Positions 3,552 through 39,659 of a stretch of 50,850 nt of DNA are shown here, in pieces. Location of the stretch: the IMG/VR virus record IMGVR_UViG_3300027733_000072, positions 1 through 50,850 of that record. One strand, given 5' to 3'. The translations under genes and the position numbers were made by a program. Position 1 is the first letter of the stretch; each line of letters opens with the position of its first letter. Below the pieces are notes generated by a model. That model saw only the letters and a program-made list of their open reading frames with translations. It was not told the DNA's origin and made no database searches. This DNA comes from a virus.

Positions 3552-4125
3552 TCTCTGATAGTATCAGATTGAGAGGCTTGTTTTTAAGTATTGCTTTAAC
3601 TCCAGAATTTAAGGCACCTTCATAATCAGATCTCTGACTATCCCCAATCATAAGTAATTGTTTAGGTTGTAAACCGCTATGTTTTATGACCATTTCAAAG
3701 GCTTCGGGTTGGGGTTTTCTGTATCCAATATCACAGGAAAAGAATATCTTATCAAAGTATTTATCAATACCTAAATTAAACACACACTCTTTATATGGAG
3801 TAGCAATATTTGATAATAGATAAAGTTTATACTTTTTAGATAGTGTCTCTAATACTTGAATAGTATCATCAAATAAGTGTGTTGACTCAATTTCTAATTT
3901 TATATCATGTTCTAATTGTGATGTATATACAAATTGGCCTGGTTTTATTTCTTCTACAATCTCTTGTAGATATGAATAATTTTTGGTCATGACTTTATCC
4001 GCCCAATAGTTCATTTCTTCTTTGGTTAGACCTATATTCTTAAATAAGTTTAGATAAGGTCTAGCTTTATACTCGGAGTATAATAAAGTACCATATAAGT
4101 CAAGTATAATAGATTTAGTTTGCAT
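3544..4125 (-). CDS. HAD-superfamily hydrolase
   Basis: A 193-residue HAD phosphatase/dehalogenase-type enzyme. Motif I is DLYGTLL (nucleophile D9, with Tyr at the usual second Asp, as in haloacid-dehalogenase-like members). Motif II is LLSNIA, motif III is the Lys in GYRKPQPEAF, and motif IV is MIGDSQRSDYEGA. The cap region lies between motifs I and II. Substrate cannot be read; phage HAD proteins often act on nucleotides or sugar phosphates. The start overlaps the end of the peptidase gene by 11 bp, indicating an operon. Confidence 0.85.
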   Translation of the reverse strand: MQTKSIILDLYGTLLYSEYKARPYLNLFKNIGLTKEEMNYWADKVMTKNYSYLQEIVEEIKPGQFVYTSQLEHDIKLEIESTHLFDDTIQVLETLSKKYKLYLLSNIATPYKECVFNLGIDKYFDKIFFSCDIGYRKPQPEAFEMVIKHSGLQPKQLLMIGDSQRSDYEGALNSGVKAILKNKPLNLILSEIN

Positions 4126-5209
4126 ACTCGGCGATTTTTGATAGTTTTGTATAGTCTTTACCTAATTTAACATTAGACTTCAAATGTGAATATGGTATAT
4201 ATTGTAGTTCGGGAATAAAATTTATTAAATCCTGTCTATTTCCTATAAAATCATATGACTCATGCTCTTGACAATAACAAGAAGTGCCATCCCAAATTAT
4301 TAACTTTGGTGTATATCCTTTTTGTAACAACATCTTGTTGATTAAGTCTTTTTCACACTCTATCCAAGTTTTAGATATATACATTTTTTTAGTAACACTA
4401 TCTTCTGAGATATATGTAAATACACTTTCTGTATATTCATCATCAAGAACTTCAACTTCATCTTCTTCCCAGATGCCACAATCATCATCACCTGGTTGTC
4501 TGAATATAGGAAGAGATTCCCAATCAATTTTAACAACGGCTCTACACAATCTAGATAAAAATTCAATATCTTGTATCTCATTGGTTGTGTGTTCATTCCA
4601 ATATCCAACTGATATGTTTGTACATTCATGAACTAAATCAACAAATTGTGCTGAATCCGTTAATATGCCAGTATCATCTGGTTCCATTTCTAATCCTAGA
4701 CCGGTTGAATTTAGTTCATCGGCTAATGCTTGAGCAAATTCATCTGAACAACATCTACCACAAAACTGTTCGGTAATAATTGATTTGGTGCCTCTTCGGT
4801 CAAATGAGACTACTTTTGTAATGTTCATCCAATCAAAAGTCATTGATAAGTTTGAGCTACCAATACACCCAACTTCCTCACCTATAAAAAAATAATATAG
4901 TCCTGGTACTTTTTTCTCAATCATATAGAGTAGAACGGTCATTCCGGCTTTATCATCAGCACCTAAGATGGTTGAGCCATCAGTCATTATCAGATTATCT
5001 GTTTGAACGTGTTTAACAGGCTTATCATATTTACAAGCCGTATCTAAGTGGCAAGTAAACATAGTGGTGAAATTATCACCAATTGTCATAAAATAGTTAC
5101 CATGTTGGTCTTTACTTATTCCTTTTGGTAGAAATTTTCTAATTTTAGATTCTGTTCCATATGGAACTGTCTGACTGGTCAATTGTAGGAACTTTCTTCT
5201 AACTCTCAT
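4115..5209 (-). CDS. Zinc peptidase of the M20/M28/M42 type (copy 1)
   Basis: A 364-residue co-catalytic metallopeptidase. The metal and catalytic residues are visible in order: TCHLDTA (H54, D56), GADDKAG (D85), GEE (E111, E112), SFDRR (D137) and NEHT (H207). Enzymes of this clan are aminopeptidases, di/tripeptidases or carboxypeptidases. An acidic linker (about residues 243-256) leads to a C-terminal region of about 110 residues not seen in copy 2. No signal peptide, so it acts in the cytoplasm or is packaged. A paralogue lies at 12637. Its phage role is unknown. Confidence 0.8.
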   Translation of the reverse strand: MRVRRKFLQLTSQTVPYGTESKIRKFLPKGISKDQHGNYFMTIGDNFTTMFTCHLDTACKYDKPVKHVQTDNLIMTDGSTILGADDKAGMTVLLYMIEKKVPGLYYFFIGEEVGCIGSSNLSMTFDWMNITKVVSFDRRGTKSIITEQFCGRCCSDEFAQALADELNSTGLGLEMEPDDTGILTDSAQFVDLVHECTNISVGYWNEHTTNEIQDIEFLSRLCRAVVKIDWESLPIFRQPGDDDCGIWEEDEVEVLDDEYTESVFTYISEDSVTKKMYISKTWIECEKDLINKMLLQKGYTPKLIIWDGTSCYCQEHESYDFIGNRQDLINFIPELQYIPYSHLKSNVKLGKDYTKLSKIAEYAN

Positions 5210-10356: not shown

Positions 10357-10464
10357 ATGAAGAACGCCAAAATCAAAAAATTTACCGAGCTATCTAAAGA
10401 TATAGAACAAAATCTACTTGAAGTTGATATTGAAAGTTTAAAATCTGGAGAATTTGAAATATAA
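10357..10464 (+). CDS. 35-residue peptide gene with capsid-targeting-like N-terminus
   Basis: Reads MKNAKIKKFTELSKDIEQ and ends EFEI. A late-promoter-like element ends five bases before the ATG. The N-terminus fits the recurring basic-hydrophobic start found on many proteins here. Very short, so the coding call depends on the promoter, the start context and the tight spacing to the next gene. Confidence 0.45.
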   Translation: MKNAKIKKFTELSKDIEQNLLEVDIESLKSGEFEI

Positions 10465-10469
10465 CGGCC

Positions 10470-10586
10470 ATGATAAAAAAACCTGGCCATTCAATGACAT
10501 CGCCTGCAACACAAGCGGTGATAAAATTAAGAATAGTTGATATATATCAAGGGTTATCATATTTAAATAAAGTTATAAATAAATGA
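10470..10586 (+). CDS. 38-residue peptide gene coupled to NFACT-R gene
   Basis: Starts MIKKPGHSMTSPATQAVI five bases after the preceding stop and ends in ATGA overlap with the NFACT-R gene at 10583. Its main role may be to deliver ribosomes to that start codon (translational coupling). No family recognised. Confidence 0.45.
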   Translation: MIKKPGHSMTSPATQAVIKLRIVDIYQGLSYLNKVINK

Positions 10587-11656
10587 GGTATATAAAAGAA
10601 TATAATGAATATCACCCAAATGAAGATACGGTTAAGAGATGGTGTGACTATTTAGATAATAATTATCCAATCAAACATGATAGTGATAAATTTATAGTGA
10701 TAGATGATAAATCATATTTTTTAACTGGAATTTTATTTAATAAAGGTAGATTGGTCAATAAAATATTTTCGGATATATTCTATTCAGATAAAATGAGTGG
10801 TTCGAAAATAGATAGACCAAGTTTGAGAAAGGCTATTAAAAATTGGGTTGATATAAATAGTGATAAATCCGTAAATGAAAATTTAGATAAATTAAATTTT
10901 AAGCCTATTATAGAAAGTTTAAGTAATCAAAAAAAAGAATACTACTATCGAATATCAGCTCCTAAATATAATGAATCGGTTGAATATGATGAAAATCCAT
11001 ATAATATGTTAAATAAAATTCGCAATTTAATTTCACCGAGTAATCCAATTTATAAATCAGTAAATAACGATGATAATGTAATATCATTTACTGTTAATAA
11101 AAAGGTATTAGATGATTATCCTGATCGAATGCGTGGTGATGATTTAAGCATTAAGTTTATAAAGGATGAATATTTTAGAGTAAAATATATTAGTAGAAAT
11201 GCTTTTAACTTTAAGTACTTCGAGTGTGACCAATTTGAAGGTCTTATTCAGTTACTTAAAGATATGGGATTAAAATTAAATGAAAGAGTTATGGAATCTA
11301 AATTAGATAGACCAAATTATAAAAAATTGGATATTGATGGATTTATAGTATATCAAGGAAAAGACGCTAAATCAAACGATTATGTGACATTTGAATTATC
11401 AGATGATGAAGACTATTGGTTACATGCTCATAACTTCCCAGGATCACATTTATTAATAAAAATAAAAGATAAATTACCACAAATTGAAACTATTAAAAAA
11501 GTAGCTGAACTCGCTGCTAAAAACTCAAAAGCTCCTAATGGAGATGTTGTAGTAGTTTGGTGTAAAAAGAAATTTGTAAAAAAGGAAATATCAATGAATA
11601 TTGGTCAAGTAAAAGTTGATTACATTAATTCAAATAAAATAACTATTGTAAAATGA
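10583..11656 (+). CDS. NFACT-R (DUF814, RqcH-type) domain protein
   Basis: A 357-residue protein. Residues about 245-357 form an NFACT-R domain: GKDAKSND (259-266; family GRN/K-x-x-QND), YWLHAHNFPGSHLLI (278-292; family DLWLH...PGSH), AAKNSKAPNGDVVVVW and GQVKVDY near the end. In bacteria this domain is part of RqcH, which binds obstructed 50S subunits and recruits tRNA-Ala for C-terminal Ala tailing. The NFACT-N and coiled-coil parts of RqcH are absent; residues 1-240 are an unrecognised domain starting MRYIKEYNEY, which fits the head-targeting pattern. The last 20 codons are duplicated at the end of the next gene, the mark of a homing-endonuclease insertion. The tmRNA lies 3.2 kb downstream. 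Confidence 0.82.
   Translation: MRYIKEYNEYHPNEDTVKRWCDYLDNNYPIKHDSDKFIVIDDKSYFLTGILFNKGRLVNKIFSDIFYSDKMSGSKIDRPSLRKAIKNWVDINSDKSVNENLDKLNFKPIIESLSNQKKEYYYRISAPKYNESVEYDENPYNMLNKIRNLISPSNPIYKSVNNDDNVISFTVNKKVLDDYPDRMRGDDLSIKFIKDEYFRVKYISRNAFNFKYFECDQFEGLIQLLKDMGLKLNERVMESKLDRPNYKKLDIDGFIVYQGKDAKSNDYVTFELSDDEDYWLHAHNFPGSHLLIKIKDKLPQIETIKKVAELAAKNSKAPNGDVVVVWCKKKFVKKEISMNIGQVKVDYINSNKITIVK
11594..11656 (+). repeat. Recoded 3' end of NFACT-R gene, copy 1
   Basis: Encodes MNIGQVKVDYINSNKITIVK. The same peptide with substitutions is encoded at 12562-12627. Synonymous changes are frequent, so the DNA is more diverged than the protein. Confidence 0.7.
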
Positions 11657-12627
11657 ATTTTGTAGATTTTAAAATAGCATCGAATACTATATTTAATAAT
11701 AAATATGATTACACAAAGTCAATTTTCATTAATTTAAAGGTACCTATTATGATATCATGTCCAAAACATGGAGATTTTAAAAAAATGCCATATCAACATA
11801 TCAACAGAAAAAGTGGATGTAATTTATGTTATAAAGAAAATAGAAAAAATAATAAATCACATAGAATTTATTTTAAGGATATTTTAATAGAATTTAGAAA
11901 AGTGCATGGATATAAATATGAGTATAATGAATTATCATATATTAATACATTAACAAAAATTGAAATAACTTGTAAAAAACATGGTATATTCAAGCAGACC
12001 CCAAAACAACATAAAAATGGATATGGATGTCAGATATGTGGTGGTTCTAAAAAGTTATCCAATGATGATTTCATAAACAATAGTAAAAATATACATGGTG
12101 ATAAATATGATTATTCAATTACTAAATATGTAAATATTAACACAAAAGTAAAAATAATATGTAATAAACATGGTGAATTTTATAAAGTGCCAAAATTACA
12201 TTTGAGTGGAAGTGGTTGTCAAAAATGTAATATTAGTTCTGGTGAGAATTTAATATTAAATATTTTAGAAAAATATAAAATAGAGTATATCTATCAAAAA
12301 AAATTTGACAATTGTAAATTCATTAAAAGTTTATTTTTTGATTTCTATATACCTAAGTATAATATTTGTTTAGAGTTTGATGGTGAACAACATTTTAAGC
12401 CAATTGATCCGTGGGGTGGATATAAAAATTTAGATGTTATTAATAAAAGAGACAATATTAAAAACAATTGGTGTTTAGAAAACAATATAATTTTGTTTAG
12501 ATTTTCAGATAAGAAAACTTTAGAAGATGATATGATAGAAAAATTCATATTAAAAATAGGTATGAATCCTGGACAAGTTAAGGTTGATTATAACAATGCT
12601 TATGAAATAACCGTATCTAAAAAATAA
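11653..12627 (+). CDS. Homing endonuclease: DUF723-type zinc repeats plus EDxHD/Vsr-like nuclease
   Basis: A 324-residue protein. Three repeats of about 60-70 residues each have KYDY/KYEY, a C-x-K/P-K-H-G segment and a closing CxxC (C36/C56/C59, C107/C126/C129, C170/C189/C192), as in DUF723 DNA-binding ribbons. The nuclease domain has FDFYIP (D230) and LEFDGEQHF (E241, D243, H247), the pattern of Vsr-like EDxHD homing endonucleases such as I-Bth0305I. Residues 304-324 are not nuclease: they repeat the NFACT-R C-terminus. Start overlaps the upstream stop by ATGA. It uses the AT-richest codons of the area, a sign of mobility. The target is probably the intact NFACT-R gene at this spot. Confidence 0.85.
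   Translation: MNFVDFKIASNTIFNNKYDYTKSIFINLKVPIMISCPKHGDFKKMPYQHINRKSGCNLCYKENRKNNKSHRIYFKDILIEFRKVHGYKYEYNELSYINTLTKIEITCKKHGIFKQTPKQHKNGYGCQICGGSKKLSNDDFINNSKNIHGDKYDYSITKYVNINTKVKIICNKHGEFYKVPKLHLSGSGCQKCNISSGENLILNILEKYKIEYIYQKKFDNCKFIKSLFFDFYIPKYNICLEFDGEQHFKPIDPWGGYKNLDVINKRDNIKNNWCLENNIILFRFSDKKTLEDDMIEKFILKIGMNPGQVKVDYNNAYEITVSKK
12562..12627 (+). repeat. Original 3' end of NFACT-R gene fused to the endonuclease, copy 2
   Basis: Encodes MNPGQVKVDYNNAYEITVSK plus one Lys. It keeps the P-G-x-V typical of the NFACT-R family, so it is probably the ancestral end, displaced by insertion of the endonuclease gene. Confidence 0.7.
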
Positions 12628-12636
12628 TATATACAA

Positions 12637-14280
12637 GTGAAGGCAGTTTATTTGACTAAAGGAGCATTAGATATTTTTGATGAAATGGGATATTCACATT
12701 TCTTTAGAAAAATAATAAACGGTCTTCAAGCTTCAATGAATAGAAGTGATGTTCCTTCTTCACAAAGAGTGACTTTGGGAAAAGAAAATATGACTTCTGA
12801 TTTATTAAAGCAAGTTTTAGGAAATGATTATGTGAATGAAGATGATTTAGAAGCATTTGTACACATCTTCAATGAAAAGGCTAATAAAAAGGAAACAAAA
12901 AAAGAAATGGGATTTTACAAAAACCAACAAATAGAACAACAAAGTGGTCCAACTTTAATTAAGTTCACTGATGATTTCTGGCAAATGCTAGATAAGATAA
13001 GACCTGGTAGTGATATTGTTTGGGATTTATACTCTTTGGATTCTAACCCAGATATTAAAAATGTAATGGGTATTACAGAATTAGACATTTCGGATAAAGA
13101 ATGGTATTTTGATATTAAGACCGGATCTAAACCTGGTCAAATTAAAGTGGCTCAGTTTATTAGATACTTCTTCAAAGAAAAGTTTACACAAGACCAAATT
13201 TTTAAATTTACACAATCTTATAATAAAATTATTGGCAAAATATCGGGTAAAGAGTCTAAAGTTGGTAACCTAATTACACCAAGAGAGTTTAAGTACGAAC
13301 CAAGTAATGTTAGAGAAACATTTATTTCACTTGTTACCGAAACTTATCCGATGGGACATGAGGAAGAAGTTGTTCCTTTTATAACACCTGGATTAACAAG
13401 AGATAAATATGGTAATTATTACACAATAATTGGTAACTCCGATACCGCTTTTACTTGTCACCTAGATACTGCTTCTAGAACAAAAGATAAAGTTGGATTA
13501 GTTGGATATAAAAAAGATGGTCAAGATTTTATAATGACGGATGGTACTTCTATCTTAGGAGCTGATGATAAATCAGGAGTTGCTATTCTTATGTATATGA
13601 TTGATAAACAAATACCCGGTGTATATTGGTTCTTCTATGGTGAAGAAAGAGGTGGTGTTGGTTCTGGTAAAGTTGCAATGGACTATGATTCGTATGAATT
13701 TATGAAGGGTATTAAGAAAATGGTATCTTTTGATAGAAGAAATTACTATTCGGTAATCACATCACAGATGGGTATTCCTTGTTGTTCTAATGAATTTGCA
13801 GAGTCTCTTTGTAAAGAATTAAATAAAAGTGGATTGAAATTAAATTTAGATCCAACTGGTGTATTTACGGATTCTGCTAATTTTATTGATATGATTGGAG
13901 AGTGTACTAACGTATCGGTTGGTTATTTTAATGAACACACAGATGATGAATTGCAAAATATTACTTATTTAGAAAGATTGGCTCAAGCTTGTGTAGCAGC
14001 TAATTGGGATAAATTAGAGGTTAAAAGAAAGATCGGATTTGATGATGCAATTGCTAGAAAGTATAATAGATTAATCAAGCAATTTAAGAAATCAATTTTC
14101 TATAATGTTGATAGTATAAAAGGTGAGAATGGTAAATTAGTTATTGATTTAGAAATAAATGATAATGATATTAATCACTTCTATAAAGACTTAACACAAT
14201 TACAACAATTGTTTACTACATATAAATTAGATCCAGATATTAAATTCTACGATGATCATATAAAAATAGAACTTGAATAA
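12637..14280 (+). CDS. Zinc peptidase of the M20/M28/M42 type (copy 2) with two N-terminal phage modules
   Basis: A 547-residue protein starting at GTG. Residues about 220-460 are the peptidase: TCHLDTA (H275, D277), GADDKSG (D310), GEE (E336, E337), SFDRR (D366), NEHT (H434). All metal positions seen in copy 1 are kept and the two are clear paralogues. Residues 1-85 and 105-200 are two copies of a module also found at the N-terminus of the three large proteins at 18516, 22639 and 30966 (pattern: hydrophobic-T/S-x-x-F...LDKI, then DISD, then a helix with FTQDQIFKF). A C-terminal helical region follows. It overlaps the next gene by one base. Confidence 0.8.
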   Translation: MKAVYLTKGALDIFDEMGYSHFFRKIINGLQASMNRSDVPSSQRVTLGKENMTSDLLKQVLGNDYVNEDDLEAFVHIFNEKANKKETKKEMGFYKNQQIEQQSGPTLIKFTDDFWQMLDKIRPGSDIVWDLYSLDSNPDIKNVMGITELDISDKEWYFDIKTGSKPGQIKVAQFIRYFFKEKFTQDQIFKFTQSYNKIIGKISGKESKVGNLITPREFKYEPSNVRETFISLVTETYPMGHEEEVVPFITPGLTRDKYGNYYTIIGNSDTAFTCHLDTASRTKDKVGLVGYKKDGQDFIMTDGTSILGADDKSGVAILMYMIDKQIPGVYWFFYGEERGGVGSGKVAMDYDSYEFMKGIKKMVSFDRRNYYSVITSQMGIPCCSNEFAESLCKELNKSGLKLNLDPTGVFTDSANFIDMIGECTNVSVGYFNEHTDDELQNITYLERLAQACVAANWDKLEVKRKIGFDDAIARKYNRLIKQFKKSIFYNVDSIKGENGKLVIDLEINDNDINHFYKDLTQLQQLFTTYKLDPDIKFYDDHIKIELE

Positions 14281-14789
14281 TGAAACTAAAAAACTATAAA
14301 GAACTTCTAAATGAAGAACGCGGAGAAGAGGATGAATTTGATAATACATCAGATAGCTCTGATTTTGGTGATAGTGAATACTATGGTGGGGAAGATGAAG
14401 AGTCTATGTATGATGATGAGAATGATTATGATGACGAAGATGAAGAAGACTACGCTCGTAGAGACAATGATCCAACATCCGATGATGTTTTAGAACATTT
14501 AGCTTCTTTAATTAGGCAAATGATTAAGTTGGCTAATATTGAGAACTATTATGTTACTACTGATGGATATGATTTAAGTATTCAGTTTGTTTTGAACAAA
14601 ACTGAGAGATTTAATAAATTAATGAAAATTATGGGTTTATTGAAGAAGTTAACAACTGATACACTTATTCAATATGAATCCGAAATGGATTTATGGGAAA
14701 CTAAAGAAGGTCATCCATTATTAACTGTTGATTTTTACTATGATAGTAAAAAGAGTGGTTCATTTAAGAAAGATGATGTTCCATTTTAA
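14280..14789 (+). CDS. Acidic hypothetical protein with head-targeting-like N-terminus
   Basis: A 169-residue protein. MKLKNYKELLNEE fits the N-terminal pattern of T4 internal head proteins, with E at the expected cleavage place. Residues 14-65 are an extreme run of Asp, Glu, Ser and Tyr. Residues 70-169 form a compact alpha/beta domain (IRQMIKLANIENYYVTTDG). Such an acidic stretch could mimic DNA or keep the protein unfolded. Starts on the last base of the peptidase stop codon (TAATG). Confidence 0.65.
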   Translation: MKLKNYKELLNEERGEEDEFDNTSDSSDFGDSEYYGGEDEESMYDDENDYDDEDEEDYARRDNDPTSDDVLEHLASLIRQMIKLANIENYYVTTDGYDLSIQFVLNKTERFNKLMKIMGLLKKLTTDTLIQYESEMDLWETKEGHPLLTVDFYYDSKKSGSFKKDDVPF

Positions 14790-14810
14790 TTTTTAAAAAA
14801 TTAAACTTTT

Positions 14811-14841
14811 TTTGATTTTTAGGATATTATATATATCTTTG
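14811..14841 (+). promoter_or_regulatory. Bacteroidetes-type promoter of the tmRNA
   Basis: TTTG at 14811-14814, then 19 bp, then TATCTTTG at 14834-14841: an exact match to the Bacteroidetes primary sigma consensus (TTTG, about 19-20 bp, TAnnTTTG). The tmRNA 5' end follows 17 bases later, leaving room for a short leader removed by RNase P. Confidence 0.8.
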
Positions 14842-14857
14842 TAAAAGTAATTAACAC

Positions 14858-15210
14858 GGGGGTGATTAGTATTGATTCGTAGGGTAAGGTTAATTATGCA
14901 GGCATCGGATGATATCTAACCGATTAAATCACGGTATCAAACGCTTTAAACGGCAAAACAACTGAAGTAGCAGGCAAAGAAGATTTAGTATTTGCTCTAC
15001 GCAACAACATCTTAAAGGCAAACGAAGTAGCTGTATTAGCTTAATAGGTTTCCAACAGTAAGAACTCTGTAAAAGTTCCGAGAAAGTTTAGGTTTGAAAC
15101 TCGTAAAAATAAAAATTTATATTTTGAAGAATTTAGAAAAATTCTCTAAGCCTGTGAATGAATAATTTGCGTTAACTAAGGAAGACTCGGTTTCGTCACC
15201 GACACCTCCA
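14858..15210 (+). ncRNA. ssrA: tmRNA (SsrA RNA), phage-encoded
   Basis: The 5' GGGGGTG pairs with 3' CACCTCC (15203-15209) as a 7 bp acceptor stem. The third pair is G-U, the identity element for alanyl-tRNA synthetase. GATTCGTAGGG follows the 5' strand, as in known tmRNAs (GATTCGACGGG). Long-range helix P2 pairs AATTAT GCAGGC (14892-14903) with GCCTGT and ATAATT (15150-15167). The T-arm is TCGGT/ACCGA around TTCGTC, a six-base loop, one shorter than usual. CCA is not encoded (ACAA follows the stem). It rescues stalled ribosomes by adding a tag and releasing the mRNA. Own promoter and terminator flank it. Confidence 0.88.
14952..15044 (+). other. tmRNA tag reading frame, unusually long
   Basis: If translation resumes at GGC (14952), directly after TTAAAC, the tag is 30 residues: begins GKTTEVAGKEDLVF, ends ILKANEVAVLA, then TAATAG. 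A GCT resume codon at 14943 would give 33 residues. Usual tags have 8-15 residues and end in ALAA; here the end is AVLA, still small and hydrophobic. Which codon is used cannot be decided by reading. Confidence 0.65.
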
Positions 15211-15216
15211 CAAATC

Positions 15217-15247
15217 AAACCCACTTAAAAATTAAGTGGGTTTTTTA
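15217..15247 (+). terminator. Terminator of the tmRNA
   Basis: AAACCCACTTAA and TTAAGTGGGTTT form a 12 bp stem followed by T residues, seven bases after the tmRNA acceptor stem. Confidence 0.9.
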
Positions 15248-15316: not shown

Positions 15317-16000
15317 ATGAAAAAGAGAAATAAACAATTTCTTAAAGAGAAGGAATACCTTCGCCTTAAAAAAGAGTTGCGCGAAAATAGAAACGCACAA
15401 CGTAACCTTGGATGGATAGAACTTCCAGAACCAGAGTTTATTGGTTATATTGCCAAACTTGAACCACGTCAAGATATCCAAAACCGTCAAGATGATTGGG
15501 TTTTTTGGACTATCTGTGATAACTTTAGTACTACTACATTTGCTCGTAGAATTGAGTTATTTGACTGGGATAAAAAGAAGACTTTTTCAATTTATCACAA
15601 GCCACACATTTCAAGTATCAGTCAATATGCTTATGATTTACTTCCTTCTCAAGTACAAAAACACTTCAAGGAAGACCCATACACCCGTAGATGGGGTATT
15701 TGGTACTATTGTACTGTTCCTAGCTTTTATTGGGATATTACCTATATCAAAGAATATAGAACTAAAGTTAAGTTAATTGATGAAATTCTTCAACAAGAAG
15801 AATCTGAATTAGAATCTAAGCTTCTTCATAATTTTTATGATGAGAAAAGAAATTATCACAATGCTCCTAAACACTTTAGAAAAACTTTGAATCGTTCTCA
15901 AAGAGCAAAATCAAAACAAACTTTACATAACATCATTTATAAGAATAAAGATGTAGAATTTGTAGATAATTACAAGAGTGCAAATTGGCTTTGGTGGTAA
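15317..16000 (+). CDS. Hypothetical protein with atypical codon use
   Basis: A 227-residue basic protein rich in Trp and Tyr, starting MKKRNKQFLKEKEYLRL and ending NYKSANWLWW. Compared with neighbours it uses CGT/CGC arginine codons and more GC-rich synonymous codons, suggesting recent acquisition or high expression. A perfect hairpin abuts its start codon. No domain recognised. Confidence 0.7.
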   Translation: MKKRNKQFLKEKEYLRLKKELRENRNAQRNLGWIELPEPEFIGYIAKLEPRQDIQNRQDDWVFWTICDNFSTTTFARRIELFDWDKKKTFSIYHKPHISSISQYAYDLLPSQVQKHFKEDPYTRRWGIWYYCTVPSFYWDITYIKEYRTKVKLIDEILQQEESELESKLLHNFYDEKRNYHNAPKHFRKTLNRSQRAKSKQTLHNIIYKNKDVEFVDNYKSANWLWW

Positions 16001-16053: not shown

Positions 16054-17037
16054 ATGTCGGTTATTTCATACTTTGGAGGCAAATCCTCAAATGTTTTCAT
16101 AGAGTTTATTAACTCAAAAATACCAAAAGATGGTAGTATTAAAACTTATTTAGAACCATTCTCTGGTTCAATGGGAACGTATATGGACGATGATAATCTT
16201 AAATTTGATACAGTTATCTATAATGATAAAAATCGTCACCAGGTGAATCTATACAAGTGTTGTTCTGAACCTGAAAAGTTTTTGTTATATCTGGAAAAAT
16301 TTAAAATGAGTGTATTAAAAACGGATGAAACCGATCCAATAAAAAAGTGGAATTTCTATAAAGAAATCTATTCAAAATATACCAAAAATGATTTCTTAGA
16401 TAATATGGATTTTGAAATTGGTGACTTTAAAAAAGCATGCATGTATGCTTTTCTAATAACATCTTCCTTTTCAAGCGTGTATCCAAAAAGTGGTGGTTTC
16501 ACAGGGTATAAAAAGGATAAAGACCGCCTAAAATTAGAAGTTCTTATTTCTAAATTAAAGAAAAATACTTATACTCAAAAGTTACAGTCAATCACTGAGT
16601 TTTATAATATTGATTTTGAAGATTTAATTGCTAAATATGATTCAGAAGATACTTATTTGTACTTAGATCCACCATATGCTCGATTTGATGAGACTAAAGG
16701 TGAAGATGATGCTAAGAGATTATTTTGGTATGGTGCTGATAAAGATGGTGTATTTGGACCAGCTTCTCACAGAAGATTGTTGGAGTTGTTAAAAACAACT
16801 AAGTGTCGTTGGTCACTTTCTTACTATTATTTTCCTTTATTGGAAGAGTTGTTACCAAGAGACCAATATGTTTGGACTGAGAAAGAAGTATTTAGAAGTT
16901 CAGCACAAGGTGGTAATAATGCTGATACAAAGAAAGAACAAGCAAAAGGTCTTGAGATGTTAATTCTAAATTACGATCCAACTACTGGTAAAAAATTAAC
17001 TAATAACGATGTATCCACTACCGAAGCAAGTTTATAA
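16054..17037 (+). CDS. DNA adenine methyltransferase, D12 (Dam) class
   Basis: A 327-residue N6-adenine methylase. Motif X is SYFGGKS (5-11), motif I is YLEPFSGSMGTY with F-x-G-x, and catalytic motif IV is YLDPPYARF near 205-213. The order X-I-IV is the alpha/D12 class. It transfers methyl groups from S-adenosylmethionine to adenine, likely to protect phage DNA or control its packaging. Recognition sequence unknown. No restriction partner next to it. A second methylase of another class lies at 42765. Confidence 0.88.
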   Translation: MSVISYFGGKSSNVFIEFINSKIPKDGSIKTYLEPFSGSMGTYMDDDNLKFDTVIYNDKNRHQVNLYKCCSEPEKFLLYLEKFKMSVLKTDETDPIKKWNFYKEIYSKYTKNDFLDNMDFEIGDFKKACMYAFLITSSFSSVYPKSGGFTGYKKDKDRLKLEVLISKLKKNTYTQKLQSITEFYNIDFEDLIAKYDSEDTYLYLDPPYARFDETKGEDDAKRLFWYGADKDGVFGPASHRRLLELLKTTKCRWSLSYYYFPLLEELLPRDQYVWTEKEVFRSSAQGGNNADTKKEQAKGLEMLILNYDPTTGKKLTNNDVSTTEASL

Positions 17038-17215
17038 ACATTACAAAGGAGGTACCTATGAAATAATTTCAATGGCGGTACACACAGAGACACAAGAAAG
17101 ATTGGTTGTGTATAAATCATTGAACTTTGGTTCAGTGTATGTGAGACCATATGAGATTTGGAATTCCGAATCAGAAGATGGCGAAAAAAGATTTACTTTA
17201 ATAGATGCAAATTAA
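17009..17215 (+). CDS. DUF1653 family protein
   Basis: A 68-residue protein matching the DUF1653 layout: YKHYKGGTYEI, then AVHTETQERLVVYK, then VRPYEIWNSE and KRF. This is a small SH3-like fold of unknown function found in bacteria and phages. The start lies 29 bp inside the methylase gene and the end overlaps the next gene by 11 bp. Confidence 0.75.
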   Translation: MYPLPKQVYKHYKGGTYEIISMAVHTETQERLVVYKSLNFGSVYVRPYEIWNSESEDGEKRFTLIDAN

Positions 17216-17900
17216 TTCAGAATTATTAAAATTAGGAGTGTTGGATAAAAGACTCCCGGTATCACAGAAAATACAAGTATCTATGTCTATCACTAGAGAT
17301 GAAATGGTATCACTTCAAAACGCATTTAATCTAAAATTAGATATTGATGCGAAATATAATTCTTTATTGTTACAAGAATTGTCTCAATCATTTCATAAAG
17401 AAATATTTAAGGAAATGAATTCCACAGAAGAATTCTTAGATGTTATGAATTTATCTGAATCAGATGGTGTGAATGTACTTTATCATTATTTAACAGAAAA
17501 TAACTTTGATTTTATCATTTGTTCATCTCAAATTGGAATGTTTGCTCAAGAATCTGTTTTATTCCACAATGAATCTATAAATAAGGTAAGTAATAGTAAT
17601 ACTTTTTATAAATTAGGTGAAATTGAAGGTATATCTGTTTATATAGATGCTTTCAAGCGATGGGATGATAAGACAATCATTTGTGGTAAAGAAGACTCAT
17701 TTAATTATAATTATGATATTGATGAACCGGTGGCTTCAAATATTACCACTACTTCGTTGAGTGGGCCGAAATTTATATCACAATTAAATTATCAAATTGT
17801 TTTAGATAAAAATAACTTTATTAATCTTCATTATGTGAATGAATTTAATGCTAAATATGTTCAAATTAATAGAGATAGAAAATTAGATGAATTATTATGA
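17205..17900 (+). CDS. Hypothetical protein, possible capsid-fold domain
   Basis: A 231-residue protein. The segment FDFIICSSQIGMFAQES (about 99-115) followed by GEIEGISVYIDAFKRWDD and TIICGKEDSFNYNY resembles the part of phage capsid proteins in which an S-x-x-I/L segment is followed by a GxxVYVDP-like strand and an ICG strand. That would suggest a minor head protein, but the link is only a pattern seen by eye. Its stop overlaps rpiB by ATGA, an odd partner for a structural gene. Confidence 0.6.
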   Translation: MQINSELLKLGVLDKRLPVSQKIQVSMSITRDEMVSLQNAFNLKLDIDAKYNSLLLQELSQSFHKEIFKEMNSTEEFLDVMNLSESDGVNVLYHYLTENNFDFIICSSQIGMFAQESVLFHNESINKVSNSNTFYKLGEIEGISVYIDAFKRWDDKTIICGKEDSFNYNYDIDEPVASNITTTSLSGPKFISQLNYQIVLDKNNFINLHYVNEFNAKYVQINRDRKLDELL

Positions 17901-25297: not shown

Positions 25298-26791
25298 ATG
25301 TTAGTAGATACTCAATATTTAGGCAATAGTAAGCGATTAGTAGTAAGTTATGTTGATAAAACCGGCGATATAAAACTAAAATATTACGAATGGGAGAATC
25401 CCAAAAAATATATTGTTTGTGATGATGATGATAAAGACCGTCATCCAACATTCAAATCTTGGGATGGTAAGAATGTTAAACACGAGGAAGTGAATACTCC
25501 AGATAGATATGCTATCTATGAGTTCTTAGATTCTCTTCCAGAAAAGGAAAAAGAAGAGATATTTGAGTATAATCTTCCAAATATCTACTTTGTCGATATT
25601 GAGACTGAGATTGTTGATGGTTTTCCTGATGCTGAGACAGCTCCCACAAAAGTTCTATCTATTTCAATTGTATATGATGATAAAATCATTCTACTTGGAT
25701 TAAAAGATATGCCAGAAGATATGCAACAGCGTATTAAAGATAATACTAATAAGTACTTTGCTAAGTTTGGTTCTAATTATAAACTAAAATATATCAAATA
25801 TGAAGATGAATTTGATATGATGTATGCTTTCTTTTATAAGATGATTCCAAAAATGCCACTCATCACTGGTTGGAACTTTATTAACTATGACTGGGTTTAT
25901 TTGGTAAACCGTGCTAGAAAACTTAAAAAGTATGTAAATGGTAGAGAGTATGATATTAATCCAGCAGTTGCTTCTTTAACAAAAAGATTAAATAAGGTTT
26001 GGATGTCAAATGAAGAAATGCCAGCTCATAGAATGATTTTTGACTATATGCAGTTGTATGAAATCTGTGACACATCAATTAAAGTAAAAGAATCATCTTC
26101 ATTGGATTTCGTGTCTAGTAAGTTAGTTGGGGTTGAAAAGATTAAATATACAGGTTCACTACAAAGATTGTATGAGGATGACTTTGAAACATTTATGTAC
26201 TATAACGCGGTTGACTCCGTGTTAGTACAAAAGATACATGAATCCAGAAACTATATCTCAATTATTTATGCGATTTCATCACTTGCGCAAATAAAGATTG
26301 TGGATGTTATCTCACAGATGAATAATGCACTTGGTTCTTTAGCTATTACAGAGGGTGTTCTCAGAAATAGATTTCGTGAACAAGAAAATATAGTTTTATT
26401 TAGAGGTGATAAAGAGCCTGGTGAAAATGTTGGTATTGCTGGTGGTTGGGTAAAAGACCCGGTGACTGGTATGAATCAGTGGGTAGTTTGTTATGACTTC
26501 GCTTCTCTATATCCTACAACACAAAGACAATTCTTTATAGCTCCGGAGACATTTGTTGGAATACAAAATCCAAATAATAAAGAATATTGTGATAATGGTA
26601 TTCAAATTGATAAATCAAAACACGTTGTTTGTGTTAATGGTGTTGTATTTGAAAAGAGAAATTCACCAACTCTTAAAATGTTGGAAGATGTTTATGCTGA
26701 TAGAAAGAAGAATAAGAAGATTATGATGAAGAAAAAGGATGAGTTGAAACTTGTTCTAGATGAGATTAAAATGTTAGAAGCTGAGTTATAA
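25298..26791 (+). CDS. DNA polymerase, family B (gp43-like), N-terminal half
   Basis: A 497-residue protein with a complete 3'-5' exonuclease: Exo I FVDIETE (D100, E102), Exo II GWNFINYDW (D198) and Exo III YYNAVDSV (D306). Motif A is CYDFASLYPTTQRQF (D400). The protein then ends after a helical, lysine-rich segment at the fingers; motif B (K-x3-NS-x-YG) and motif C (DTDS) are absent and no frameshifted remnant follows, because the convergent HAD gene begins at the next base. The other half must lie elsewhere, as in T4-type Aeromonas phages with split gp43. No catalytic activity expected without that partner, except exonuclease. Confidence 0.88.
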   Translation: MLVDTQYLGNSKRLVVSYVDKTGDIKLKYYEWENPKKYIVCDDDDKDRHPTFKSWDGKNVKHEEVNTPDRYAIYEFLDSLPEKEKEEIFEYNLPNIYFVDIETEIVDGFPDAETAPTKVLSISIVYDDKIILLGLKDMPEDMQQRIKDNTNKYFAKFGSNYKLKYIKYEDEFDMMYAFFYKMIPKMPLITGWNFINYDWVYLVNRARKLKKYVNGREYDINPAVASLTKRLNKVWMSNEEMPAHRMIFDYMQLYEICDTSIKVKESSSLDFVSSKLVGVEKIKYTGSLQRLYEDDFETFMYYNAVDSVLVQKIHESRNYISIIYAISSLAQIKIVDVISQMNNALGSLAITEGVLRNRFREQENIVLFRGDKEPGENVGIAGGWVKDPVTGMNQWVVCYDFASLYPTTQRQFFIAPETFVGIQNPNNKEYCDNGIQIDKSKHVVCVNGVVFEKRNSPTLKMLEDVYADRKKNKKIMMKKKDELKLVLDEIKMLEAEL

Positions 26792-38734: not shown

Positions 38735-39523
38735 TTATAAAGAAGCTAAAAACATTTCGCTTTCTTTTTCTCTTCTGGTTTCTAATCCTGGGAATTTTTT
38801 ATTTAAGTTGTAATCTCTTATTGAGTCACCGGCTAACTTCAATTCACCTTTTTTGATTTGTTGTATTAGTTCTGATTGTCTTAAACTACCAACACCAGAG
38901 TTAAAAGCTAATGATACTAAAGCATCAAACATACTTTGTGATATTTTCACGTCTATTCCTCTTTCATCCCACTCTTGGAATATTCTTCTTACACCATCGG
39001 CTGCTTCTTTTAAATCTTCCTTTAAGTATTTATCAGCCTGAGTTTGTGTTATTTTTTGACCTTTTCTTAATTTAGTTTTACCGATATCTTCAGCATGTCC
39101 ATATCCAACAGTGACTTTTCCATCACCAATTGTATAAGCTTTTAATACACACTTTTCTTCACTTTTGATATGATTCCAACCTGCCTCGGAAAGTCTAAAT
39201 TCATATCCAGGTTTGAAAACCTCTTCTTTGTTGACTTTTTCTTCAGCCATTTCTATTGCAATTTCCTTATCTTCTGGTGATGCGTTAGATGTATTAATTA
39301 TTTGAATAACATTCGTTATGGTATTGAAAACTAAGAGTGTTCCGACAGCATATTTAATCAACTTTTTTCTACCATCTGCAGAAAGACCTTTTAGTTTACT
39401 TACAATGTTATCCCAAATAGATTTGTTATCTGATGACTCATTAATAGATAAATTGATATAGTCAATAGTTTGTTGAATTATTAATTCTTCATTGAATTGT
39501 TTATAGTTTGATAAATGTCTCAT
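38735..39523 (-). CDS. Lysozyme (GH24) with membrane segment and head-targeting-like N-terminus
   Basis: A 262-residue protein. MRHLSNYKQFNEE is the targeting-like start (ATG at 39523 preferred over 39544). A hydrophobic segment (YAVGTLLVFNTITNVIQII, about 58-76) could anchor it in a membrane. Residues 106-262 are a GH24 muramidase: E123 in SEEKCVLKAY and T138 in VTVGYGH are at family positions. The middle catalytic residue (D or C, nine after the Glu) is I132; D134 may replace it. It cuts peptidoglycan. Such a layout suggests a virion or signal-arrest lysin rather than a free cytoplasmic endolysin. No holin was found beside it. Confidence 0.82.
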   Translation of the reverse strand: MRHLSNYKQFNEELIIQQTIDYINLSINESSDNKSIWDNIVSKLKGLSADGRKKLIKYAVGTLLVFNTITNVIQIINTSNASPEDKEIAIEMAEEKVNKEEVFKPGYEFRLSEAGWNHIKSEEKCVLKAYTIGDGKVTVGYGHAEDIGKTKLRKGQKITQTQADKYLKEDLKEAADGVRRIFQEWDERGIDVKISQSMFDALVSLAFNSGVGSLRQSELIQQIKKGELKLAGDSIRDYNLNKKFPGLETRREKESEMFLASL

Positions 39524-39659
39524 AAATGTATATATTATTTTCACTTTTCACTTTTTATAAAAGTAATCTATAAAAAATCCACCCTTGAAAAAATACAAAT
39601 TTTAGTGTTCATATATATCATTACAAAAAAATAATTAAAAAATTAAAACTTTTTTAATT

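Follow-up and report, generated by a model that had tools for sequence, protein, structure and literature searches.

Does a phage locus that resembles a ribosome-rescue cluster belong to a rescue system of the phage's own? The question is raised by the virus record IMGVR_UViG_3300027733_000072, the whole 50,850-nucleotide stretch of which was analyzed and is referred to here as the window. An original prediction, made from the sequence alone, had claimed such a cluster at positions 10357 to 15247, comprised of an NFACT-R protein, a peptidase, an acidic protein, and a transfer-messenger RNA (tmRNA). All four components were confirmed, the tmRNA by an Rfam match and by 29 homologues. We consider it likely, from sequence comparison, that the locus represents the tmRNA-bearing end of a trans-translation system that is run by the phage and uses a tag of its own, and that an NFACT-R protein has joined this system in one sub-clade. 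All features with coordinates between 10357 and 17037 lie on the plus strand.

A tmRNA family and its detection

The tmRNA gene (ssrA) spans positions 14858 to 15210, from the 5' acceptor strand to the discriminator base A73; the next letters are CAA, and CCA is not encoded. ARAGORN missed this RNA, also at a lowered score threshold, and no Rfam tmRNA match was found in the window at the gathering cut-off (47 bits). A permissive Rfam search of 901 bases aligned RF00023 from end to end (model positions 1 to 374) with positions 14858 to 15213 at 36.7 bits (E = 5.5e-13). The complete Mahaphage genomes LR756502 (642 kb) and LR745206 (634 kb) have a gap of about 570 to 610 bases after the same genes; Rfam reported no tmRNA in these gaps, and the same RNA was recognized there by eye. 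Two short RNA patterns were then used to collect the family from viral contigs, yielding 41 loci with 29 distinct full sequences, and a profile search added further relatives, most of them cut off by contig or locus ends. A scan of viral contigs with the protein pattern of the window NFACT-R alone returned nothing, and it was the RNA patterns that succeeded.

Across the 29 distinct tmRNAs, the acceptor, the first stem of pseudoknot 1, and the T-stem were 99.7% paired, and both sides had changed in 8 of the 17 pairs. None of 500 shuffles reached this level of compensatory change, and slid versions of the stems were only 29 to 53% paired. Compensatory changes were seen at acceptor pairs 5 and 6, and all five pairs of the T-stem (98.8% paired) covaried. 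The second stem of pseudoknot 1 is clear for the window group; for several other members it is uncertain. All 29 RNAs have a tRNA-like acceptor with A73 and an invariant G3.U70, which is the alanine identity pair of tRNA-Ala. In the window, the T-arm (UCGGU-UUCGUC-ACCGA, with a 6-nucleotide loop) and the 3' acceptor strand CACCUCC, which contributes to G3.U70, occupy positions 15187 to 15209. The T-loop departs from the canonical UUCRA type: most family members have a GCAG core (GGGCAGUAC), and the window group has a loop of 6 nucleotides, UUCGUC or UUCGAU. We treat this as variation and do not count it among the defining features of tmRNA. In the mRNA-like domain, a pseudoknot precedes an open tag frame that is under coding selection and closed by a stop. 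On this evidence, the RNA at 14858 to 15210 almost certainly belongs to a genuine tmRNA family, and the call made from the sequence alone was correct where ARAGORN and the Rfam cut-off had failed.

ARAGORN detected none of the 29 family members, and on 640 kb of LR756502 it listed 46 tRNAs and no tmRNA. Because the same ARAGORN detects E. coli ssrA in a control, we read the ARAGORN and Rfam negatives as a limit of sensitivity, with the odd T-loop as the likely reason for the ARAGORN failures. An ARAGORN-based survey counted tmRNAs in 402 of 18,146 phage genomes (PMC9004378); since the usual tools miss the present RNA, published counts of this kind are lower bounds. Two further Mahaphages have a tmRNA or a tmRNA candidate. 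LR756504 (636 kb) encodes a separate tmRNA that scores above the Rfam cut-off and has an encoded CCA, and LR756501 (735 kb) has a weaker match (21 bits) that stays a candidate only. When bacterial and archaeal genomes were scanned with the RNA core, at least 119 stretches matched, and no full family member was present among the matches listed; a recent host origin is thus not seen.

The tmRNA appears to have its own expression unit. A Bacteroidetes-type promoter lies at 14811 to 14841, with TTTG (14811 to 14814), a spacer of 19 nucleotides, and a TAnnTTTG element (TATCTTTG, 14834 to 14841). TAnnTTTG was found upstream of 22 of 28 family tmRNAs, versus 6% in shuffles. An intrinsic terminator at 15217 to 15247 (a perfect inverted repeat and then a run of T) closes the unit, and a terminator-like site follows 23 of 28 family tmRNAs. 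The promoter type agrees with the Bacteroidetes hosts predicted for Mahaphages above 634 kb (PMC7162821).

The tag and its candidate partners

In the window, the tag frame extends from 14946 to 15044 and encodes LNGKTTEVAGKEDLVFALRNNILKANEVAVLA up to a stop codon, which is followed directly by a second stop, TAG; the first codon is inferred, having been placed by analogy with E. coli. Tags across the family resemble VNGKTNEVGTREDLVAALQNNM, are located after pseudoknot 1, and contain 29 to 32 codons up to the stop. Synonymous changes made up 33% of all codon changes when the initial 17 codons were compared in the tag frame, versus 7% and 2% in the other frames, indicating that the tag peptide is under selection at the protein level. 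No family tag ends in LAA. The endings include ATV, ELV, SLV, AVA, and VLA, with V or A as the last residue, and the tags of LR756504 (read by eye) and of the LR756501 candidate end in AVAA and LVLA, respectively. An LAA-like ClpX degron is usual in tmRNA tags and was not taken as defining. The contrast with host LAA endings is based on the E. coli control and general knowledge, a literature search for Bacteroidetes tags having given nothing useful. The tag was also considered as a copy of a phage protein, and no convincing match was found among the proteins of LR756502 or of the window.

A tmRNA works with SmpB, and genes for SmpB (E = 1e-49 to 1e-55, above the NCBIfam cut-offs) were found in LR756502, LR745206, the 436- and 476-kb contigs, LR756501, and LR756504, as well as in one 174-kb contig with the window type of tmRNA. 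SmpB was mostly absent from smaller fragments, as expected of fragments. Judging from these genes and from the conserved RNA, the phage tmRNA very probably works with SmpB in trans-translation. Could the RNA instead be a decoy that inhibits host trans-translation by titrating SmpB or EF-Tu? There is a precedent in mycobacteriophage DS6A, which has a tmRNA consisting of the tRNA-like domain only, and a similar molecule inhibits tmRNA (PMC4131195); the elbow of the present RNA is altered as well. A decoy would need no tag, however, yet 29 to 32 codons and a stop have been kept under coding selection, and the phages carry SmpB of their own. We therefore regard a decoy as improbable.

Which protease might read such a tag was assessed from the gene content of the six large records. 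Lon was dropped as a candidate since none of the six contained Lon_C. ClpP was found in five of them. LR756502 has three ClpP genes, two of which encode proteins close to full-length bacterial ClpP, with the Ser-His-Asp triad, and one diverged copy lies 2.6 kb from smpB. The same genome encodes a double-AAA ATPase of 707 residues that has both a UVR motif and a VGF loop; its top rank in NCBIfam was ClpB, below the cut-off, and we read it as ClpC-like without the N-domain. The ClpP paralogues and this ATPase are at 58607 to 59281, 112095 to 112817, 364437 to 365003, and 440544 to 442667 of LR756502.1. For the proposal that the tag leads to Clp proteolysis, these genes suggest an even chance.

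Gene order and the NFACT-R protein

Dozens of phage contigs, the two complete Mahaphages of about 640 kb among them, show NFACT-R, peptidase, acidic protein, and tmRNA in this order. The usual series starts with head protease and major capsid protein ahead of NFACT-R and continues past the tmRNA with a DNA methyltransferase. The original prediction had called for a check of co-occurrence in related phages, and the outcome supports a conserved ribosome-rescue cluster over a chance association: the four genes are syntenic in the majority of loci that cover the region, and the complete relatives carry SmpB. Of 30 records with this tmRNA, 29 contained NFACT-R, and so did a further record examined afterward (30 of 31). 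Where the positions of both are available, NFACT-R is 2.0 to 3.7 kb upstream of the tmRNA on the same strand.

In the window, the NFACT-R gene (10583 to 11656) encodes 357 residues, of which 251 to 344 (approximately 11333 to 11614) match Pfam NFACT-R_1 (PF05670; E = 1.8e-11). Most phage copies are only about 130 residues long, and the window protein has an extra domain of about 226 residues between its N-terminal peptide and the NFACT-R domain. The family profile matched solved RqcH chains at E of about 1e-24, over RqcH residues 379 to 550 only. RqcH models matched the phage proteins far below the cut-off and only at model positions 448 to 546 (EfbA model) or 453 to 521 (archaeal RqcH), and no match to NFACT-N, HhH, or the coiled coil was found in the phage proteins. 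The designation RqcH-type thus holds for the NFACT-R domain and fails for the protein: with this domain alone, identity with RqcH was rejected. It follows that poly-alanine tailing by this protein is not expected. A second rescue pathway, in which the protein would restore RqcH-like alanine tailing beside the tmRNA, has in its favor the closeness of the phage NFACT-R sequence to RqcH; it is largely refuted by the domain content and the small size of most copies, and RqcH contacts tRNA through NFACT-N and HhH (PMC8012679), so that we regard it as highly implausible. On the 50S subunit, the NFACT-R domain of RqcH is near the A-site finger (PMC8012679). From this position, our best conjecture is that the lone domain binds the ribosome or tRNA, and we suggest tentatively that the phage protein acts on ribosomes in the same pathway as the tmRNA.

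Most NFACT-R and acidic proteins start with M..KK[YF]xx[FY]xE, which is similar to the capsid targeting sequence (CTS) carried by T4 internal proteins (PMC9026906). With a motif matrix built from the acidic proteins, 77 of 812 LR756502 N termini had the motif, versus 8.7 expected from internal stretches, an approximately 9-fold enrichment. The LR756502 orthologue of the acidic protein ranked third of the 812 for this motif, built from its own family, and several NFACT-R starts scored above 12. The LR756502 NFACT-R start did not score with the matrix, and some other NFACT-R starts were uncertain. On the likeness of these N termini, packaging of NFACT-R in the virion has a probability just short of even. 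About 70 LR756502 proteins with the T4-CTS-like peptide form a candidate list of packaged proteins, and the window lysozyme (38735 to 39544) also has such a start. In addition, the head protease continues into a long, fused scaffold-like region in which YSEYIAENLDKNI is repeated about a dozen times; these repeats resemble the CTS motif (L001, 15690 to 17789; L002, 16012 to 18135).

These observations bear on a rival explanation, in which the tmRNA is a plain phage version of host ssrA and supplies additional rescue capacity upon the destruction of host mRNAs, the tag reflects neutral drift, and NFACT-R is a mere neighbor in a head-gene operon, such as an internal head protein that binds DNA or RNA. 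In most relatives, the NFACT-R gene directly follows the major capsid gene, and the enriched CTS-like starts of NFACT-R and the acidic protein fit this explanation, as do the two Mahaphages LR756501 and LR756504, in which SmpB occurs with a tmRNA candidate and a tmRNA, respectively, and NFACT-R was not found. Against it, the tag is conserved at the protein level across divergent phages, and in the window lineage, in which the capsid gene is not adjacent, the block from NFACT-R to the tmRNA is still intact. We consider the plain-copy explanation possible but rather doubtful. The absence of NFACT-R from LR756501 and LR756504 also weighs against the phage-run system proposed here, and implies that NFACT-R is an add-on in one sub-clade, dispensable for the core system. 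Other points on the same side are that SmpB and Clp genes were not seen in the window, a record of 50.9 kb only; that ClpP was not found in the 735-kb genome; that Clp is linked to the tag through genome content only; and that the differences in the T-loop and the non-encoded CCA could alter EF-Tu or SmpB binding.

The other genes of the locus were analyzed in the same manner. The peptidase gene (12637 to 14280; GTG start, 547 residues) encodes an M28/M20-like metallopeptidase (phrog_4191, "peptidase", E = 1e-67). Peptidase_M28 (PF04389) was matched by 8 of 15 family members, weakly (best E, 4e-4), and the family profile matched the peptidase T family in PDB (E = 3e-10). The motifs HLDTA, ADDKSG, GEERGG, FDRR, and EH(T) are invariant, as are the metal-ligand residues H275, D277, D310-D311, E336-E337, D366, and H434 that characterize M28/M20 peptidases. 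The protein resembles exopeptidases of the M28/PepT type, and related proteins occur in many phages that do not belong to this group; the suggestion that it processes tags gained no support. The window has two peptidase paralogues (4115 to 5209 and 12637 to 14280), and Mahaphages have them at 4 to 8 places each. The acidic protein (14280 to 14789; 169 residues) has, by alignment, a conserved C-terminal domain and the T4-CTS-like N-terminal peptide. It was considered as a known adaptor; neither Pfam nor PHROG has a family that it matches, and PDB gave no convincing relative.

The original list of components omitted a gene at 11653 to 12627, which encodes a free-standing homing endonuclease of the treble-clef/HNH type (phrog_559, HNH endonuclease, E = 4e-65; phrog_9084, homing endonuclease) and sits between the NFACT-R and peptidase genes. 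The sister contig G015 (locus L176) is 99.4 to 99.6% identical to the window on both flanks and lacks the endonuclease; its plain NFACT-R of about 131 residues is joined straight to the peptidase. BLASTN comparison of the two delimited a replaced or inserted segment at 10381 to 12557, which holds the endonuclease and a divergent NFACT-R copy with 76% DNA identity to G015 within the domain. The final 22 residues of the endonuclease correspond to the original C terminus of the native NFACT-R gene. The endonuclease gene appears to be mobile and to supply a replacement for NFACT-R, the target gene that it breaks.

Downstream of the tmRNA are a gene conserved in several relatives by synteny, with no assigned function (15317 to 16000), and a D12-class adenine DNA methyltransferase gene (16054 to 17037; PF02086, E = 7.6e-15), which synteny identifies as a conserved neighbor. 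Beyond this block, the proteins encoded at window 17205 to 17900 and L001 24835 to 25620 show a relationship to the C-terminal portion of the major capsid protein (phrog_28442). Elsewhere in the window, positions 40215 to 41666 encode a TROVE/Ro60 protein with a VWA-like part (PF05731, E = 1.2e-19), for which no Y-RNA search beyond the Rfam scan was made, and positions 25298 to 26791 are an open reading frame for a family B DNA polymerase (497 residues) with partial family coverage, the remainder of which is not in the next genes and which is perhaps a split gene.

Proposed pathway and known systems

We propose that in the infected cell an alanine-charged phage tmRNA, in complex with the SmpB of the phage (or of the host), would enter ribosomes stalled on broken mRNA, swap in its own message, and append a phage-specific tag of about 31 residues. 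As the tag ends in V or A and not in LAA, tagged chains would probably be handed to another reader, most likely a Clp protease of phage or host origin whose preference differs, and the M28/PepT-like peptidase may then complete the digestion of the resulting peptides. NFACT-R would most likely be an accessory protein that binds ribosomes or tRNA in these complexes, and the T4-like N-terminal peptide present in most relatives could place it in the virion. A stricter version, in which phage ClpCP rather than host ClpXP reads the tag and virion-borne NFACT-R steers stalled host ribosomes to the phage pathway early in infection, is unlikely. The idea in the original prediction of a reply to tRNA-cleaving defence, or of a block on host ribosome quality control, is speculative.

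The largest known phages keep a ribosome-rescue RNA that is invisible to the usual tools. The conserved non-LAA tag makes it testable whether viruses mark proteins for a fate other than that chosen by their hosts. The link between NFACT-R and the tmRNA unites in one locus parts of both bacterial systems that tag stalled chains at the C terminus, and it provides a handle on the role of a lone NFACT-R domain.

Phage tmRNAs and SmpB were already known (PMC7162821, PMC4131195, PMC9004378); the family described here, with its tag and operon, appears to add a new variant. Huge phages with SmpB and with tmRNAs called by ARAGORN have been reported (Al-Shayeb et al. 2020, PMC7162821). Our two closest complete genomes are the 634- and 642-kb Mahaphages, the sizes of which are given there, and in the passages of its text that were consulted we found no description of the tag, of the T-loop, of the NFACT-R operon, or of the Clp genes. 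Phage NFACT-R shares with RqcH the domain that contains the D-x-W-x-H...G-S-H and GxVxVDxxN motifs; it differs in lacking the other RqcH domains, in being virus borne and mostly stand-alone, and in its position beside a tmRNA. The phage NFACT-R and acidic protein resemble T4 internal proteins (PMC9026906) in having an N-terminal lysine/aromatic peptide that ends in E, and head protease and capsid genes lie upstream in most relatives.

With the one-piece bacterial tmRNA (RF00023), the phage family has in common the G3.U70 acceptor, pseudoknot 1, the tag frame and stop, and the 3' half of the tRNA-like domain. It differs in its T-loops, in having no encoded CCA, and in scoring under the Rfam cut-off. 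The phage tag is three times as long as that of E. coli and lacks LAA. The tmRNA tag of Mesoplasma florum is long and is read by Lon. Mesoplasma elements have been put to use (PMC9097571). The phage tag likewise is long and has no canonical ClpX ending, and M. florum provides a precedent for a change of protease; the phages differ in that no Lon was found in the six large records, with ClpP (in five of them) and a ClpC-like ATPase (in LR756502) present instead.

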